From an uncultured Methanomassiliicoccales archaeon (lineage in GTDB: Archaea > Thermoplasmatota > Thermoplasmata > Methanomassiliicoccales > Methanomethylophilaceae), in NCBI GenBank assembly GCA_949292635.1, contig CASEZY010000008.1, positions 1 through 64,000 of the forward strand: a DNA stretch of 64,000 nucleotides, given 5' to 3'. How positions within the stretch are numbered: the stretch's first letter is position 1; the number at the start of each line of letters is the position of its first letter. This document shows, one piece after another, positions 10,014-19,359 of this stretch. The position numbers were made by a program, and so were the translations under genes. The notes under the pieces were generated by a model, which had not been told where the DNA came from, ran no database searches, and was given only the letters and a program-made list of their open reading frames with translations.

Positions 10014-11426
10014 TCAGGCTCCGTACATCCGGGTTTTGGATGAACGTTCCTCGAATACCTTATCCGGATCCTGCCATCCTGTGCTCTCCAATCCGGCGCG
10101 GACATAGTCTCCGAGCCTCCACACCATGTACAGTGGCACGTGGGTCACACTCCCGATGACCGCCTCGGGATCCATGGAGACCTTCACCGAGACCCTGGGC
10201 TCATACCTGCCGCGATAGGACTTGAGACTCTTGGATGAGCGGGCCGAACCGGCCTTCACCTCGATGGGCACCGGCTCATAGAGGATGGGGACGATGAAAT
10301 CCACCTCCGCCTTGGCGTCCGAACGCCAGTAGTATGATTCCGTATCCAGGTGGGCCTTCAACTCCAACAGGACCAGATTCTCCGCCATGACCCCCTTGAA
10401 CTCCTTGTAATCCCCCGGTTGGGAATTCACGAAATCCGCAGGCACCCCGGATTTGTATGTCAGCAGACCGAGATCGCACATGTACAGCTTGTAGAACCTG
10501 GTGGTGTTCATGGAGAGCGGGATGGCGGGTTTCTCCACCATCCGGGTCATGTGCACCAGGCCCGCATCCTTCAGCCATTGTACTGAGGTCTCGAGATCGG
10601 CCGCTCTGGCGCCTTCAACGGACTGTCCGAACACGAATCTGGAATTGTCACGCAGCAGCTGTTCGGTAACACTCTCCCACACACGCTCCAACGTACCCTT
10701 CGCATCTACCGGATGCTTCTGCAAATCATCGGCGTAGGTGGAGAGGATGCGATCCTGCACCCTTCTGACGGCGGGAAGGCTGTGTGTTTTCACCCACGTA
10801 CCGACGGCCTCCGGCATACCGCCGACCACCTGATACTCCCTCAGACGGTCAATGAGCGTGGGGACCATGAACTCGGGGATCTGCTCATGAACATCCATGT
10901 CCCTTAGACAATCCCGCATACGAACGTCCCCGGAAGCCAGAAGAAATTCCTCGAAATCCATCGGATAGAGGTTCAGATACTGCACCTTGCCCACGGGGAA
11001 GGACTGCGAAGGTACATCATTGGATGAGATGTTCTTCTTCGTTGAACCGGGAGACAAAATCGATGAGCATGCACAAATAACGTGATACTCTGGAGCCTTC
11101 TCGGCGAAATACTTCAGACTGGTGAGGGCACGGGGACACGCCTGGATCTCATCGAAGAACAGGAGCGTTGAGTCAGGGTTGATCTCCACGCAACCTTGGA
11201 TGGATAGCAAAGGTATCAGACGCAAAGGGTCGATGCTTCCCTGGAAGAGTGCACAGAGCTCAGGCCGATCCTCGAAATTGAATACGGCCACATTCCGATA
11301 GTTATCATTACCGAATGTCTCGATCAGATGCGTCTTCCCGCAATGCCTGACACCTTTGACGATAAGAGGCAGACGGTCCGGAGAATCCTTCCATTCCCTT
11401 AAGCGCTCATAAGCCAACCTGTGCAC
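10014..11426 (-). CDS. AAA ATPase with DUF4143 domain
   Basis: A 470-residue ATPase. The N-terminal AAA_14 domain has Walker A GVRHCGKTHLIE (about residues 25-36) and Walker B TLLFFDEIQACP. The C-terminal DUF4143 half carries EVDFIVP...PIEVKAG, which looks like the core of a PD-(D/E)xK nuclease fold. These proteins are widespread in archaea and gut bacteria, often in many copies, and their function is unproven. The GTG at 11426 lies about 26 bases from an ATTAATACC box. A cluster of 33-bp direct repeats begins at that box. A second family member lies at 13139-14557. Confidence 0.88.
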   Translation of the reverse strand: MHRLAYERLREWKDSPDRLPLIVKGVRHCGKTHLIETFGNDNYRNVAVFNFEDRPELCALFQGSIDPLRLIPLLSIQGCVEINPDSTLLFFDEIQACPRALTSLKYFAEKAPEYHVICACSSILSPGSTKKNISSNDVPSQSFPVGKVQYLNLYPMDFEEFLLASGDVRMRDCLRDMDVHEQIPEFMVPTLIDRLREYQVVGGMPEAVGTWVKTHSLPAVRRVQDRILSTYADDLQKHPVDAKGTLERVWESVTEQLLRDNSRFVFGQSVEGARAADLETSVQWLKDAGLVHMTRMVEKPAIPLSMNTTRFYKLYMCDLGLLTYKSGVPADFVNSQPGDYKEFKGVMAENLVLLELKAHLDTESYYWRSDAKAEVDFIVPILYEPVPIEVKAGSARSSKSLKSYRGRYEPRVSVKVSMDPEAVIGSVTHVPLYMVWRLGDYVRAGLESTGWQDPDKVFEERSSKTRMYGA

Positions 11427-13138: not shown

Positions 13139-14557
13139 ATGAGGAGGAAGATTACCGATAAGTTGCTCGCCTGGAAGGAGAACAAGAGGAAGACCTGCCT
13201 CCTGATCAGGGGGGCGAGACAGGTCGGGAAGACATACTCTGTGACGGAGTTCGTTTCCGAGAACTACGCCCACCACCTATGCATCGACCTCTCCAAGAAC
13301 GAGCGTGCCAGGGGCGCATTCGACGGGGACCCGTCGGTGGATGATATAATCATGCGCCTCTCTATCATATTCAGCGATTTCCGCTTCGTGCCCGGAGAGA
13401 CTGCGATATTCCTCGACGAGATACAGAGCTGCCCCAACGCCAGAACATCGCTGAAGAGCTTCGCCCAGGACGGTCGCTACGACGTCATAGCATCTGGGTC
13501 GCTCATAGGGATCAGGATGAGCGATGTCGGCGACTATCCGGTGGGATACGAGACCCGCCTGACGATGTACCCCATGGACTTCGAGGAGTTCCTGTGGGCC
13601 AACGGGATGTCCGAGAACGTTCTGGCTCATATCAGGGACTGCATCAGGACCCGCACACCGTTCGATACCGAGGTTCTGAAGAACATCAACCAGTGGATGA
13701 GATGGTACATGATCACCGGCGGGATGCCCCAAGCGGTCGGTACCTTCGTGAGGGAGAAAAAGTTCGACGGTGTGAGACAGGTCCATTCGGATATCATACA
13801 GGATTACATGGACGACATATCGAAGCACTGCGACGAGAATCAGCGCAATCGCGTCGAAAGGATGTTCGAATCGGTGAGCGCTCAGCTGGCGAAACAGAAG
13901 GTCCGCTTCGTATATTCGGAGGTTAGAAAGGAGATAGGATATGACGTCGGCTCCGAATACTACGGATACTCCAGGAACTGGCTGAAGCAGGCCGGACTGA
14001 CACTGGAATGTATCGCAGTCTCCGAACCGCACATGCCTCTCGCGGAGAGGATGGATGATACGAGGTTCAAACTGTACTTCAACGACACCGGCCTGCTGAC
14101 GTCGATGTATGAGTCGGAGGTGCAGTACGAGATACTTACCGGGAACACGGAGGTGAACCGCGGCGCCGTCATGGAGAATCTGGTCGCGCAGATGCTGGCG
14201 TCCCAGGGTAGGAGCCTGCTTTATTACTATCGTCCGAAGAGCCTGGAAGTGTCGGAGGACAACGATGTCGTAACCGTGAATCCGATCGAGCTGGACTTCG
14301 TCACGGTCGTGGAAGGGCACGTCGCCGCCATAGAGGTGAAATCCGGAAGGAAGAGCAGAGGAAGATCCCTGCTCAGGGCGATGGAGGATTTCGGGGTCCG
14401 GGGCATCAATCTCGGGAACTGGAATATCCAGATTGATGAGAACGGGGTACTGCATCTCCCGATATTCGCCGCCGCGTTCATGGACAGTATAGATCCGCCG
14501 CGCGACATGTCTGTGGATGCGTCATCCGTGGACAGACTGAACACCATGTTCGGTTGA
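13139..14557 (+). CDS. AAA ATPase with DUF4143 domain
   Basis: A 472-residue paralogue of the ATPase at 10014-11426. Walker A is GARQVGKTYSVTEF and Walker B is AIFLDEIQSCP. The shared YPMDFEEFL and GGMP.AVG segments follow. The C-terminal DUF4143 half has ELDFVTV...AIEVKSG, a PD-(D/E)xK-like core. No transport or transposition gene accompanies it. The ATG at 13139 lies exactly 26 bases after the centre of an ATTAAATAC box, which itself touches the 66-bp repeats. The gene may be autoregulated through those repeats, since its relative has a comparable arrangement. Confidence 0.88.
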   Translation: MRRKITDKLLAWKENKRKTCLLIRGARQVGKTYSVTEFVSENYAHHLCIDLSKNERARGAFDGDPSVDDIIMRLSIIFSDFRFVPGETAIFLDEIQSCPNARTSLKSFAQDGRYDVIASGSLIGIRMSDVGDYPVGYETRLTMYPMDFEEFLWANGMSENVLAHIRDCIRTRTPFDTEVLKNINQWMRWYMITGGMPQAVGTFVREKKFDGVRQVHSDIIQDYMDDISKHCDENQRNRVERMFESVSAQLAKQKVRFVYSEVRKEIGYDVGSEYYGYSRNWLKQAGLTLECIAVSEPHMPLAERMDDTRFKLYFNDTGLLTSMYESEVQYEILTGNTEVNRGAVMENLVAQMLASQGRSLLYYYRPKSLEVSEDNDVVTVNPIELDFVTVVEGHVAAIEVKSGRKSRGRSLLRAMEDFGVRGINLGNWNIQIDENGVLHLPIFAAAFMDSIDPPRDMSVDASSVDRLNTMFG

Positions 14558-14658: not shown

Positions 14659-15645
14659 TCACTGCTGGCTGTCGGGCATCGGACAGGCGCACTGAGGCTC
14701 GTATTCATGCCTGAACTCACCGATGGGGATCAGCTTGCAGACCACTGTGTCGGCATAGACCAGCGGGTCGGCGTGCCTGAAGAACACCACACCGTCGCAG
14801 GATGCGCGGATCTCCTCGCGGACGTTGCCTTCGTAGGGGTCTATGATCCTGGCGATCACGTCGCCCTCAGCAACCTGTGCCTCCACCTCGGTGGCGGGTT
14901 CGAATATTCCAGAAGAACCGGTCTGAATGCTCACCAAGTGGCTCTCCTCGATTACGTCGGACATGAATCCGGCACGCTCGTGGTACGATACAGCGCCGAT
15001 GCGGTTCAGGAACCTGGTGACCGCGTTGACCACCCTCATGGCGCTGAACCTGTCGATCCTGGAGGTCTCCGGGGTGTACAGCGAGAAGGCCCTGGTCTCC
15101 CAGATCTGCCAGTTGTAGTTCAGGGTACCGGAATCGAAGGGGACCGGATCCACCAATACCACATAGGGCAGGCCGAAGGTCTTGGCGTCCTCCACGCTCT
15201 CGAACCCTGTGCGCATCATCCTCACATGAGGCGAGAATCTCCCGGGGGTGTGGTAGCTGGCGAACTGGACGCCGTACTTATACTCGGAGATCTTCTTGAA
15301 CAGGCCGTCGGCGATCCTCTGCGTGGTCTCACCCAGGTCGTAACCGGGGAACATGCGGTTGATGTCCGAGTTGTCGGTGGGCCAGAACCTCTTGCCGATG
15401 TTCATCGAGTAAGGATTGGCGCTGGGGATGACGGTGATGGAGCAGCAGTCGGCGATCCTTCCCTTTGCCTCCAGCGACTTCAGACGTGAGACCAGCTGAG
15501 AGCAACAGTAGAGTTGCTGCACCTCGTTCCCCCTGAGGGAGCCGACGATGCACATGGTCTTCTCCCCCTGGCCGAACTTGAATCCAGTGATCCTGAAGGA
15601 GTCGCGGTACAGTGAATCCATTTCGTAGACGGTGATGCGCTCCAT
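14659..15645 (-). CDS. M14/AstE-like protein lacking a zinc-ligand histidine
   Basis: A 328-residue relative of succinylglutamate desuccinylase/aspartoacylase (M14 fold). In active members the first zinc motif is HGxE. Here it reads LRGNE, with Arg38 where the His should be, while Glu41 and the later His132 (ASYHTPGR) remain. The substrate-Arg region (DINRMFPG) is kept. The C-terminal part has a beta-barrel-like domain (about residues 230-310), as in the AstE group. It is probably a non-catalytic or altered partner of its neighbour, which has an intact site. It is the last gene of a five-gene operon, 4 bases downstream of the previous stop. Confidence 0.8.
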   Translation of the reverse strand: MERITVYEMDSLYRDSFRITGFKFGQGEKTMCIVGSLRGNEVQQLYCCSQLVSRLKSLEAKGRIADCCSITVIPSANPYSMNIGKRFWPTDNSDINRMFPGYDLGETTQRIADGLFKKISEYKYGVQFASYHTPGRFSPHVRMMRTGFESVEDAKTFGLPYVVLVDPVPFDSGTLNYNWQIWETRAFSLYTPETSRIDRFSAMRVVNAVTRFLNRIGAVSYHERAGFMSDVIEESHLVSIQTGSSGIFEPATEVEAQVAEGDVIARIIDPYEGNVREEIRASCDGVVFFRHADPLVYADTVVCKLIPIGEFRHEYEPQCACPMPDSQQ

Positions 15646-15649
15646 GATA

Positions 15650-16579
15650 TCACATCCTCAATATCCTGGCTATCAGAGAGCCTTCGTCCACCACGGGATA
15701 CTCCCTGAGGGTGAATACCAGTCCGTCGCATGGGGACATCATCTCCACCAATATCTCACCGGTGAGAGGGCTTACTATATCCCCCAGATGCTCTCCCTTG
15801 CGGACGTCGATCCAATGCTCTATGTGGGGAACGAACAGACCGCCCTTGGCGGCGTTGATGTACTCCACCTTGCGATCCGCGGAGACGATCGGTACGCGGA
15901 CCTCCGGGACGGGACCGTCCCACATGCCCAGGTGGGCCATCAATGAGATGATGCCCTTGCTCAACTGGTCGCCGTACTCGTGGGTCAGGCGCATGCCCAC
16001 GCCCATCTCGGCGACAAGGGTCTTGGTGCCCACCATGTTGAGGGAATATGCAAGTGTGGACTCTAAAACGGTGGCCGCGGAATGCACCCAGATGAAGTCT
16101 ACGTTCATGTGCTGTGCCAGCGGTACCAGATCGTCGGCGGTGAGCTCATTGATCCTGATCTGGGGGATCTCCCTGAGGAAGATGTTGCTTGCGTGGATGT
16201 CCACGCACACGTCCGCGCCGCGGATGTCGTCGAAGATCTCCGCCGCGATGTACTCGGGCATGGAGCCCTTGCGGTCTCCGGGGAAGGTGCGGTTCATGTC
16301 CAGGTCGAAGCCGGGGACACCGCGGGTGATGGAATCGATACCCAGTGGATTCAAGGCGGGATAGATGTCCACGATGCCCTTCAGGTGCTCCTTGTGATGT
16401 GAGATGAAACGGTTGAGCTCGAAGCAGACCAGCTGTCCCTCCAGCTCATCGCCGTGGGTACCTGTGACGATGCAGATGCGCTTGAGACCCTCCAGGGGCC
16501 CGTCGGGAACGATCCTGTTCTTCACGACCTGCAGCTCCTCGTCTACGGGGAGGCTGATGGAGACCACTTTCTCTATCAT
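15650..16579 (-). CDS. M14/AstE-family zinc amidohydrolase or carboxypeptidase-like deacylase
   Basis: A 309-residue protein with a complete M14/AstE active site: zinc ligands His42 and Glu45 (THGDE) and His129 (VDIHAS), substrate Arg in DLDMNRTFPG, and the catalytic Glu191 in LVAEMGVG. Family members hydrolyse N-acyl amino acids or cut C-terminal amide bonds. The C-terminal barrel domain follows. The start overlaps the stop of the transglutaminase gene by 4 bases (ATGA), so the two are coupled. It is the fourth gene of the ATP-grasp operon and may remove or trim what the ATP-grasp enzyme adds, which is inference. Confidence 0.85.
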   Translation of the reverse strand: MIEKVVSISLPVDEELQVVKNRIVPDGPLEGLKRICIVTGTHGDELEGQLVCFELNRFISHHKEHLKGIVDIYPALNPLGIDSITRGVPGFDLDMNRTFPGDRKGSMPEYIAAEIFDDIRGADVCVDIHASNIFLREIPQIRINELTADDLVPLAQHMNVDFIWVHSAATVLESTLAYSLNMVGTKTLVAEMGVGMRLTHEYGDQLSKGIISLMAHLGMWDGPVPEVRVPIVSADRKVEYINAAKGGLFVPHIEHWIDVRKGEHLGDIVSPLTGEILVEMMSPCDGLVFTLREYPVVDEGSLIARILRM

Positions 16580-17373
16580 GGGACGACATCCTCCGTCACC
16601 GTCACGGCGACGTTCTGTTCGGAAGTGAGGGCGCCGTAGTACACGCCCCGGTTTATGCGGCAGTCATCGAAGTCGCGTCCGTGAGACACCTTTATGTGCC
16701 TCCCGCCCACCGGCTTGTCGGCGGTGGGGTCCAGACCATACCATCTGCCGTCCACCAGCGCCTCGGTCCAGGCGTGGCTCTCTCCCTCGCCGATGGTGTA
16801 TCCCACCACGTATCTGGCGGGGATCCCGGCGGTCCTGAGCACGGAGACCAACGCGTGAGCGTAGTCCTGGCAGACCCCTTTGCCCAAGGCAAGGGCGTCC
16901 TCGGCCGTTGTTCCCGGTCCGGTGACCCCCTTCTCGTACTGCAGGGATTCATGGACCAGATGCATTGCCGCTTCGGCCCGGGCGATGCCCTCATCATATG
17001 ATAACGTCTCGCCCGCCAACCTCCTCACCGTGATCCCGGGGGCGGTCTTGCGGGTGGGCTGACGGTACATCATGGCGTCTCCTTCGACAGCGTCGGTCTC
17101 GGGAACGAACGAGATGCCGTCGCCCAAGGTCTCCACGATGCCTTCCGTCGTCACGGAGAACCTGGAATGCTCATCGTTGGCATTCCCGCCGAACACGATG
17201 TTACCGCCTGCGTCCCGGGTATACATGATCGGCACCCGGGGCTCAACGGAGACCCCGGATTCCGCCACCTTCTGACGCAGGGTGTCGCAGGGCAACGCCT
17301 TCAACGAGAAGGAATGCCTGGTCACCGGTCCGTCAAACAGGATGGTCATGGTGTATGCGAAGCGGAGACGCAT
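16576..17373 (-). CDS. Transglutaminase-like cysteine protease with N-terminal beta domain
   Basis: A 265-residue protein. The N-terminal 110 residues resemble the bacterial transglutaminase N-terminal domain. The catalytic triad is Cys168 (GVCQDYAH), His200 (ESHAW) and Asp215 (GLDPT). This family is repeatedly found beside the alpha-E and circularly permuted ATP-grasp proteins, where it is predicted to act as a peptidase or amide-transfer enzyme. The start is 5 bases after the alpha-E gene. No signal peptide is seen, so it acts in the cytoplasm. Confidence 0.9.
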   Translation of the reverse strand: MRLRFAYTMTILFDGPVTRHSFSLKALPCDTLRQKVAESGVSVEPRVPIMYTRDAGGNIVFGGNANDEHSRFSVTTEGIVETLGDGISFVPETDAVEGDAMMYRQPTRKTAPGITVRRLAGETLSYDEGIARAEAAMHLVHESLQYEKGVTGPGTTAEDALALGKGVCQDYAHALVSVLRTAGIPARYVVGYTIGEGESHAWTEALVDGRWYGLDPTADKPVGGRHIKVSHGRDFDDCRINRGVYYGALTSEQNVAVTVTEDVVP

Positions 17374-17378
17374 GATTC

Positions 17379-18041
17379 TCAGACATCTATGAACGATTCT
17401 ATCAAGATAACGGCACCGCGGCGATCGCCGGCGGAGACCATCTCGCGAATCTTACCGATGGCGGACACGTCATACTTGAGCCCGGTGAGACGGATCCTGG
17501 TCTCCAGACGGTTCAGCTCGTGCTGTATGCGGTCCTCGGGGATGCCGAATCTGAGGTAGAGGTCGACGCGCTCCACCCTGCGTCCGGTCTTGACGATACT
17601 CCTCTCGCTCTGGCTTGCCATGGAATCGTCCAGACAGCCCCAGAATGCGTAAAGGTCGTCGATAACCTTCAGCAAACCAACCAGAGGGGCCTTACCGATG
17701 GCGGCCTTGCGCATGTCGTAGACTGCCATCTGCACGTATGCCAACGTGTCCGAACCGATGTCGTCCCTCAGCACCACGGCATTGTCGTAAGCGCGGATGA
17801 GGTTACTGATGATGGAGTCCGGTATGGAATCGTCGAAGGGATATCTGCTGAGGAAATCGTCCTTGTCCGCGTAGACATCGGGAATGTTGACCCTGCGGCA
17901 ATATTCCTGGTGAGAATCGGAGGATTCGTCGATCATCCTGTCGAATCCGGAGGAGAATTCGTTTACAGTGGTGTAAACCCTCTCTGCGTACCTTCCAAGC
18001 CAAAACAGCTCGTTGGCCCTCTCGGTAGTGATATGGCTCAT
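17379..18041 (-). CDS. Alpha-E domain protein (DUF403)
   Basis: A 220-residue all-helical protein. It opens with the family hallmark ANELFWLGRYAERVYTT, which is how alpha-E proteins begin. The family is known only by its constant pairing with circularly permuted ATP-grasp and transglutaminase-like enzymes, and is predicted to be a partner subunit or an amide-bond-forming component. It starts 4 bases after the ATP-grasp gene. No catalytic residues are established. Confidence 0.9.
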   Translation of the reverse strand: MSHITTERANELFWLGRYAERVYTTVNEFSSGFDRMIDESSDSHQEYCRRVNIPDVYADKDDFLSRYPFDDSIPDSIISNLIRAYDNAVVLRDDIGSDTLAYVQMAVYDMRKAAIGKAPLVGLLKVIDDLYAFWGCLDDSMASQSERSIVKTGRRVERVDLYLRFGIPEDRIQHELNRLETRIRLTGLKYDVSAIGKIREMVSAGDRRGAVILIESFIDV

Positions 18042-18045
18042 CTTG

Positions 18046-19359
18046 TCACCTCGAAAGCACCCATGTGTCCTTGAATCCCCCGCCCTGGGAGGAGTTCACG
18101 ATGAACGAATCGGGATTCCTGGAGAACCTGGTCAGTCCGCTCTTCCATACCATGGTCTTCGAACCGGTGAGAACGAACGCACGAAGGTCCGCCTTGCGGA
18201 AGACGCGACCCTCCTTCTCCAGGATGTCCAGATCCTTGAAGTCGATGACCTCCTGAGCGATGAACCTCCTGGGCTCGTTCTTGATCAGCTCAATGAGGGA
18301 CCCCTTCTGCTCCGGGGAGAGCTTGCTGCCGAAGACAACACCGTATCCTCCGGCCTCGGCCACGTCCTTGATCACGAGACGGTCAAAGTTCTCCAGCACG
18401 AACTTACGGTCCTCCTCATAGAAGGGTAGGTAGGTGGGGGCGTTGTTGAGGATGGGTTCCTCGTTCAGGTAGTAGCGGATCATCTTGGGCACGAAGTAGT
18501 AGATACCCTTGTCGTCGGCGATACCGTTCCCGGGAGCGTTGATCAATGCCACGTTGCCGGCGCGATAGGCGGCCATGATGTGTGGGACTCCGATAAGAGA
18601 TTCCTCGACGAACTCCAACGGGTCCATGTACTCGTCGGAGATCCTGCGGTAGACCACGCCCACCTTCAGCTTGTTGCCCTTGTAGTCTATGTAGTAGACC
18701 ACGTTGTCCTCCACGGTGAGGTTCTGGCCGGTGACCAGCACGGAACCGGTCTTCTCCGCCAGGTAGGAGTGTTCGAAGTAGGCGGCGTTGTACCTTCCGG
18801 GTGTGAGTACCACGTTGATGCCGCCGGTGTTCACGTTGTCCATGGTCTGCTTCAGCAGATCGGCGTAATCGCGGTTGTCCTCCACGTGGTTGTGACGGAA
18901 TGTGTCGGGACTGGACTTGCGGGTGAGATCCCTGGCTATCAGGGGGTAGGAGGCACCCGAAGGGACGCGGAGGTTGTCCTCCAGTACGTACCATGTGCCA
19001 TCCTTGGCCTGGACCAGGTCGATGCCTGAGATGTGGCTGTGGATCCCCTTGGGAGGGACGATGCCTTCGCATTCGCGCAGATATCCCGAGGATGAGAATA
19101 CGAACTCCTCGGGGATCACCCCGTCCTTGATGATGCGCTTCTCGCCGTATACATCCGCAAGGAAATGATTGAGGGCGTCCACCCTCTGTGCGAGTCCCCT
19201 CTCCAGGTACTCGAACTCCTTCTTGGTGATCACTCTGGGGATGGGGTCGAAGGGGAACAGCTGCTCCTTGAAGACCCCGTCCTTGTAGATGCCAAACTTG
19301 ACTCCGTACCTTGCGAGAAGGCCGTTGACGGTCTCTGTCTGCTTGAATAGGTCGTCCAT
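18046..19359 (-). CDS. Circularly permuted ATP-grasp amidoligase
   Basis: A 437-residue member of the circularly permuted ATP-grasp type 2 family (DUF404/DUF407). Family landmarks are the N-terminal VFKEQLFPFDPIPRVI, the middle VLEDNLRVPSGASY and ALINAPGNGIADDKGIYYFVP, and the ATP-binding VIKDVAEAGGYGVVFG. The family is predicted to make peptide-like amide bonds using ATP. It is the first gene of the operon. A CTTTATATT box near 19411 would give a leader of about 26 bases with a GTGTGAG ribosome site. The gene is close to the usual length, so it should be active. Confidence 0.9.
   Translation of the reverse strand: MDDLFKQTETVNGLLARYGVKFGIYKDGVFKEQLFPFDPIPRVITKKEFEYLERGLAQRVDALNHFLADVYGEKRIIKDGVIPEEFVFSSSGYLRECEGIVPPKGIHSHISGIDLVQAKDGTWYVLEDNLRVPSGASYPLIARDLTRKSSPDTFRHNHVEDNRDYADLLKQTMDNVNTGGINVVLTPGRYNAAYFEHSYLAEKTGSVLVTGQNLTVEDNVVYYIDYKGNKLKVGVVYRRISDEYMDPLEFVEESLIGVPHIMAAYRAGNVALINAPGNGIADDKGIYYFVPKMIRYYLNEEPILNNAPTYLPFYEEDRKFVLENFDRLVIKDVAEAGGYGVVFGSKLSPEQKGSLIELIKNEPRRFIAQEVIDFKDLDILEKEGRVFRKADLRAFVLTGSKTMVWKSGLTRFSRNPDSFIVNSSQGGGFKDTWVLSR

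Follow-up and report, generated by a model that had tools for sequence, protein, structure and literature searches.

The window analysed here, a stretch of 64,000 nucleotides from the 1.48 Mb genome of an uncultured Methanomassiliicoccales archaeon, contains a five-gene operon on the reverse strand. Its first gene (18046-19359) encodes a circularly permuted ATP-grasp ligase of 437 amino acids (PF14403, 463 bits; PF04174, 425 bits). It is followed by genes for an Alpha-E domain protein of 220 amino acids (17379-18041; PF04168, 67.8 bits), a transglutaminase-like protein of 265 amino acids in which the Cys-His-Asp motifs are present (16576-17373; PF01841, 77 bits), an intact AstE/AspA-type deacylase of 309 amino acids (15650-16579), denoted M14-A, and finally a degenerate AstE/AspA-type protein of 328 amino acids (14659-15645), denoted M14-B. 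The four genes upstream of M14-B share its strand, and neighbouring genes overlap or are separated by no more than 5 bases; the transglutaminase-like gene and M14-A share a 4-base start/stop overlap, and 4 bases separate the M14-A stop from the M14-B start. Lachnospiraceae share this operon. Promoter and terminator scans gave a signal no higher than in shuffles. A gene named HtpG from its sequence lies upstream of the operon, and an ATPase-like gene on the opposite strand lies downstream of M14-B. Two similar-looking ATPase genes, probably paralogues, are located close to the operon at 10014-11426 (reverse strand) and 13139-14557 (forward strand), with P-loops GVRHCGKTHLIETF and GARQVGKTYSVTEF.

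The last two gene products belong to one family and are 22% identical to each other. M14-A scores 76.2 bits against PF24827 (AstE_AspA_cat) and M14-B 42.7 bits, the curated cut-off being 25, so the M14-like nature assigned to M14-B in the original prediction holds. Its reading frame, strand and coordinates were confirmed. Fold and Pfam family are also those of the N-acetyl-diaminobutyrate deacetylase DoeB/EutE (PDB 6twm, 3na6) and other AstE/AspA relatives. DoeB (6twm) is the best structural match of M14-A, which keeps all ligands and the base, whereas M14-B, which matches 6twm as well, is without two ligands and the base. By E-value, M14-B is structurally closest to the cyanophycin dipeptide hydrolase CphZ (PDB 8ein, 8eip; 8eip for the fold given here), an enzyme that cleaves an isopeptide-type amide and is about 16% identical to M14-B. 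Against the DoeB model TIGR02994 the pair gives 43.9 and 51.5 bits, far below the equivalog cut-off of 402.7. Because the best structural matches, DoeB for M14-A and CphZ for M14-B, are both amide-cleaving members of the family, M14-A is probably a zinc deacylase that cuts amide bonds. We know of no dead partner of DoeB or CphZ, nor of an operon joining CphZ to ATP-grasp and Alpha-E genes.

The former active site of M14-B

A scan of bacterial and archaeal genomes found at least 551 relatives. The best 80 of these were retained; they come mostly from Lachnospiraceae and other Clostridia, with identities of 54-62%. Conservation was assessed in 79 core orthologues, and in 99 sequences from archaea and Bacillota once a second, more divergent subfamily had been added.

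The zinc-ligand set of the family, His-x-x-Glu plus a distal His, is complete in M14-A (His42, Glu45 and His129, together with the general base Glu191), as had been proposed for the neighbour, and all four residues are present in 77 of 77 core-family A proteins. M14-B has Arg38, Glu41 and Ala129 in the ligand positions. Arg38 (codon 15532-15534, reverse strand, as for all codons below) occupies the place of the first zinc-binding His in the motif LRGNE, opposite His42 in THGDE of M14-A, which bears out the substitution first noticed. All orthologues have Arg here (79/79 in the core family, 99/99 in total), and RGNE occurs in all five archaeal ones. A His at this position in orthologues had been named as the sign of a private mutation or a sequencing error; not one of the 99 sequences has it. 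Such a reading, for which no support was found, is practically excluded by this conservation across archaea and Bacillota.

Glu41 (15523-15525), the sole zinc-ligand position kept, is invariant in the 99 sequences, and the substrate-pocket motif Asp94-Ile-Asn-Arg97 (15355-15366) is kept too, with Asp94 and Asn96 at 100% and Arg97 at 98%. These two elements were listed correctly as retained. The third one listed, His132 (15250-15252), was taken for a remaining ligand in error: it is in no ligand position, faces the non-ligand Asn132 of M14-A, and is Tyr in 74 of the 79 core orthologues. The third ligand position, His in M14-A and in the B proteins of intermediate form described below, is held by Ala129 (15259-15261) and varies among Ala, Thr and Ser across the family. 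At the position of the general-base Glu stands Tyr190 (15076-15078), with Tyr in 78/79 core orthologues, Phe in the remaining one, and Tyr in 98/99 overall. Loss of the first His was thus recognised from the outset, and the wider damage was overlooked: two of the three zinc ligands and the base are gone.

The assignment of Ala129 deserves comment. Between residues 122 and 142 the alignment of M14-A with M14-B is gapless, and in the two models the strands terminate at almost identical residues, so zinc-binding His129 of M14-A faces Ala129 of M14-B; profile comparison with the intermediate B proteins also gives Ala129. Profile comparison with M14-A alone shifts the third-ligand spot by two residues, and the third-ligand region of M14-B was shifted in a first multiple alignment of seven sequences. 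We rely on the larger alignment, because every group falls into place there.

Loss of the zinc site did not leave a random remnant. Arg38, Glu41, Asp94, Asn96 and Arg142 are 100% conserved in the 99 B proteins, and Arg97, Gln127 and Tyr190 about 98-99%; Gln127 stands where M14-A proteins have a constant Asp. Conserved columns of M14-B are over-represented near the pocket (odds ratio 5.2, p 9e-6), also within the catalytic domain alone (odds ratio 3.4, p 0.001). Since the strongly conserved columns cluster at the former active site, the pocket is evidently under selection and not decaying.

Pairing of M14-A and M14-B across genomes

Next, we surveyed 299 genomes of a single bacterial family, Lachnospiraceae, where closely related genomes are not independent observations. 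M14-B was found in 65 of them and M14-A in 62, and all 62 genomes with A also carry B. The arrangement of active and inactive paralogues in one operon, first noticed in the archaeon, recurs here with great regularity: of the 74 B genes, 71 come immediately after an A gene in the same orientation, the median gap being 13 bases, and none of the 72 A matches is without an adjoining B. The three exceptional B genes comprise one at a contig end, one in a joined or deleted operon fragment, and a lone B (L166 in genome G367), the only clear exception among the 74. Among the loci of the best 80 relatives, every one on a sufficiently long contig shows ATP-grasp, Alpha-E, transglutaminase, A and B in this order; a few of these loci have internal frame breaks. 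Beyond the five genes, no conserved flanking genes were found across the loci examined.

In the second subfamily, 19 divergent loci keep A beside B without the other three genes and in varying neighbourhoods. As the pair persists in the absence of ligase genes and amid changing neighbours, we regard it as an inherited unit. M14-A is not always canonical in this subfamily: three of 20 A proteins (L120, L124, L136) have Tyr at the first His and keep Glu45, His129 and Glu191, and others in the subfamily have lost Arg97. The "active" partner may thus be drifting here as well. The ligase-free pair is often found near a LysR-type regulator gene (L131, L126, L129, L138), and several loci of this group have AzlC/AzlD-type amino-acid exporter genes nearby. 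At one locus (L147:5672-7240, reverse strand), the M14-B reading frame continues into a C-terminal methyltransferase domain (PF08241, 79 bits).

Once the other operon genes are accounted for, A and B distances are modestly correlated (partial r 0.34, with 0 of 999 permutations as high), and M14-B distances correlate with those of transglutaminase at least as well as with those of M14-A. A search of viral contigs found no relative, and among the plasmid matches listed by tblastn with M14-B there were only distant DoeB-like sequences with less than 28% identity.

Likely intermediate B proteins and possible descent of the operon

Six genomes from another class of Bacillota carry another form of the A+B pair. 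Their B protein has HGDE together with DVH or DIH, that is, all three zinc ligands, and Met at the position of the base Glu. In the four of these loci covered by longer sequence, all five operon genes are present. Intermediate forms were recorded at loci L145, L146, L150-L155, L169 and L170; the Alpha-E protein of the intermediate operon is longer, with a full 294-position match in L145 versus a partial match in the window.

In profile comparison the intermediate B is nearer to M14-B (E 2.5e-38) than M14-A is (1.2e-24), and the two share motifs (DINRMFPGYDxGETTQRIADG). A tree separates all A from all B proteins, with long branches that make the grouping of B with intermediate B uncertain. A protein that has retained the ligands and lost the base suggests stepwise loss, and judging from these sequences the likely order in the B lineage is base first, ligands afterwards.

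In both the A and the B part of the tree, the archaeal sequences group with one and the same clostridial locus, L036, a placement suggestive of transfer of the whole operon from Clostridia to these archaea. Among the best 80 of at least 551 relatives, L036 is the bacterial locus nearest to the archaeal operon. Its genome, G297, is a candidate for the donor lineage; it also bears a second copy of M14-B (E 4.8e-133).

Possible function of the pair

Amidoligase systems of this kind were reportedly defined in a 2009 paper by Iyer. In Anbu operons, genes for ATP-grasp, Alpha-E and transglutaminase proteins are accompanied by Anbu, the presumed hydrolase (PMC6376114, PMC5666114). The operon described here opens with these three genes in unchanged order and ends with a hydrolase, with the difference that the M14 pair sits where proteasome-like Anbu stands. 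No Anbu gene is present at the operon locus, which is flanked by HtpG and an ATPase. At other, plasmid-borne loci, a Peptidase_Mx zinc protein is encoded near ATP-grasp, Alpha-E and transglutaminase genes.

We consider it rather probable that M14-B is a conserved pseudoenzyme and the obligate non-catalytic partner of M14-A, and that the pair is the hydrolase of an amide-bond-making system. The near-obligate pairing speaks for a working unit of two subunits, one of them non-catalytic, and so lends partial support to the heteromer of the original prediction; it is also compatible with two proteins that act in one pathway and make no contact. In the proposed scheme, the circularly permuted ATP-grasp protein probably forms the amide bond, and A and B would combine into one complex. 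Arg38 would fill the metal position and probably pair with Glu41; it would hold the M14-B site together or bind an acidic group of the substrate. The pocket of M14-B would thereby bind an anion or the substrate, and regulate M14-A or supply it. The substrate would be an amide-linked amino-acid compound, at which amino-acid transporters and a C26 gamma-glutamyl hydrolase encoded nearby weakly hint. Amino-acid ABC transporter, C26 hydrolase, AzlC and LysR genes recur in subsets of loci only, so neighbouring genes are a weak guide to the substrate.

Dead members of enzyme families are not without precedent. The M14 pseudopeptidases AEBP1, CPXM2 and CPD-III have lost ligands, and their base Glu is replaced by Tyr (PMC11266112). 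They are of animal carboxypeptidase type, whereas M14-B is of prokaryotic AstE/AspA type and, unlike them, has an invariant Arg at the first ligand position and a fixed genomic partner. In Helicobacter pylori, Csd1 and Csd2 form a heterodimer of zinc-bearing and zinc-less metallopeptidase homologues (PMC5053510); these are cell-wall enzymes of the M23 family with no sequence relation to A and B. With enzyme-pseudoenzyme heteromers in general, M14-B shares the genetic tie of a dead paralogue to an active one, a tie known here from the genes.

Three other readings were weighed. M14-B could be a stand-alone sensor or carrier of an amide-linked compound, influencing expression or transport while forming no stable complex with M14-A. 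Retention of the pocket residues Asn96, Arg97 and Arg142 after loss of the zinc site agrees with this, as does the location of some Lachnospiraceae operons near genes for polar amino-acid ABC transporters and C26 gamma-glutamyl hydrolase, and of second-subfamily loci near AzlC and LysR genes. However, B nearly always lies directly after A even where all other neighbours change, and M14-B has no added DNA-binding or membrane domain, the methyltransferase of one copy being the sole C-terminal addition, so we find this role rather unlikely.

It is also unlikely that M14-B is a catalyst with a rebuilt site, metal-free or differently liganded (Arg38, Glu41, Gln127, Ser130, Tyr190), performing a second reaction on the same substrate, although the new residues show the invariance of a catalytic set. 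A further point in favour is H. pylori Csd4, an active M14 enzyme with Gln46 at the position of the His ligand. According to PDB entry titles, the structure of a Gln46His variant of Csd4 has been solved. Against a rebuilt site, two ligands and the base are lost together in M14-B, and the likely intermediates, which still have the ligands, already carry Met in place of the base. To our knowledge, there is no metal-free working M14 relative. Moreover, Glu-to-Tyr is the very change seen in known M14 pseudopeptidases (PMC11266112).

That M14-B is just a scaffold on which M14-A depends for folding or stability, its own pocket binding no ligand, we hold to be very unlikely: near-obligate pairing agrees with it, and so does the poor prediction of the most conserved motif, segment 93-100, in a single-chain model of M14-B (pLDDT under 50), but few parts of the protein are as conserved as the old pocket, and a pure scaffold would not need such conservation.

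The pseudoenzyme partnership favoured above may be taken one step further, tentatively. The pair may represent an undescribed two-subunit deacylase in which Arg replaces zinc in one subunit, whose former active site, now a fixed anion or substrate site, selects amide-linked compounds for the active subunit or presents them to it, and in which the hydrolase is an exchangeable part in the place of Anbu. No description of the A+B pair was found in the papers searched, a set outside which many subscription papers lie, the 2009 amidoligase study among them, and the pair appears to be previously undescribed.

Systems with ATP-grasp, Alpha-E and transglutaminase proteins are known mainly from Anbu operons. 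Here the hydrolase would come from a family of established chemistry, which takes acyl groups or isopeptide-linked groups off amino acids, and this offers a direct handle on the product of the ligase. The A+B pair moreover appears to preserve the steps leading from an enzyme subunit to a pseudoenzyme. With M14-B in 65 of 299 sampled genomes, the system is common in gut Lachnospiraceae and thus bears on amino-acid metabolism in the gut.
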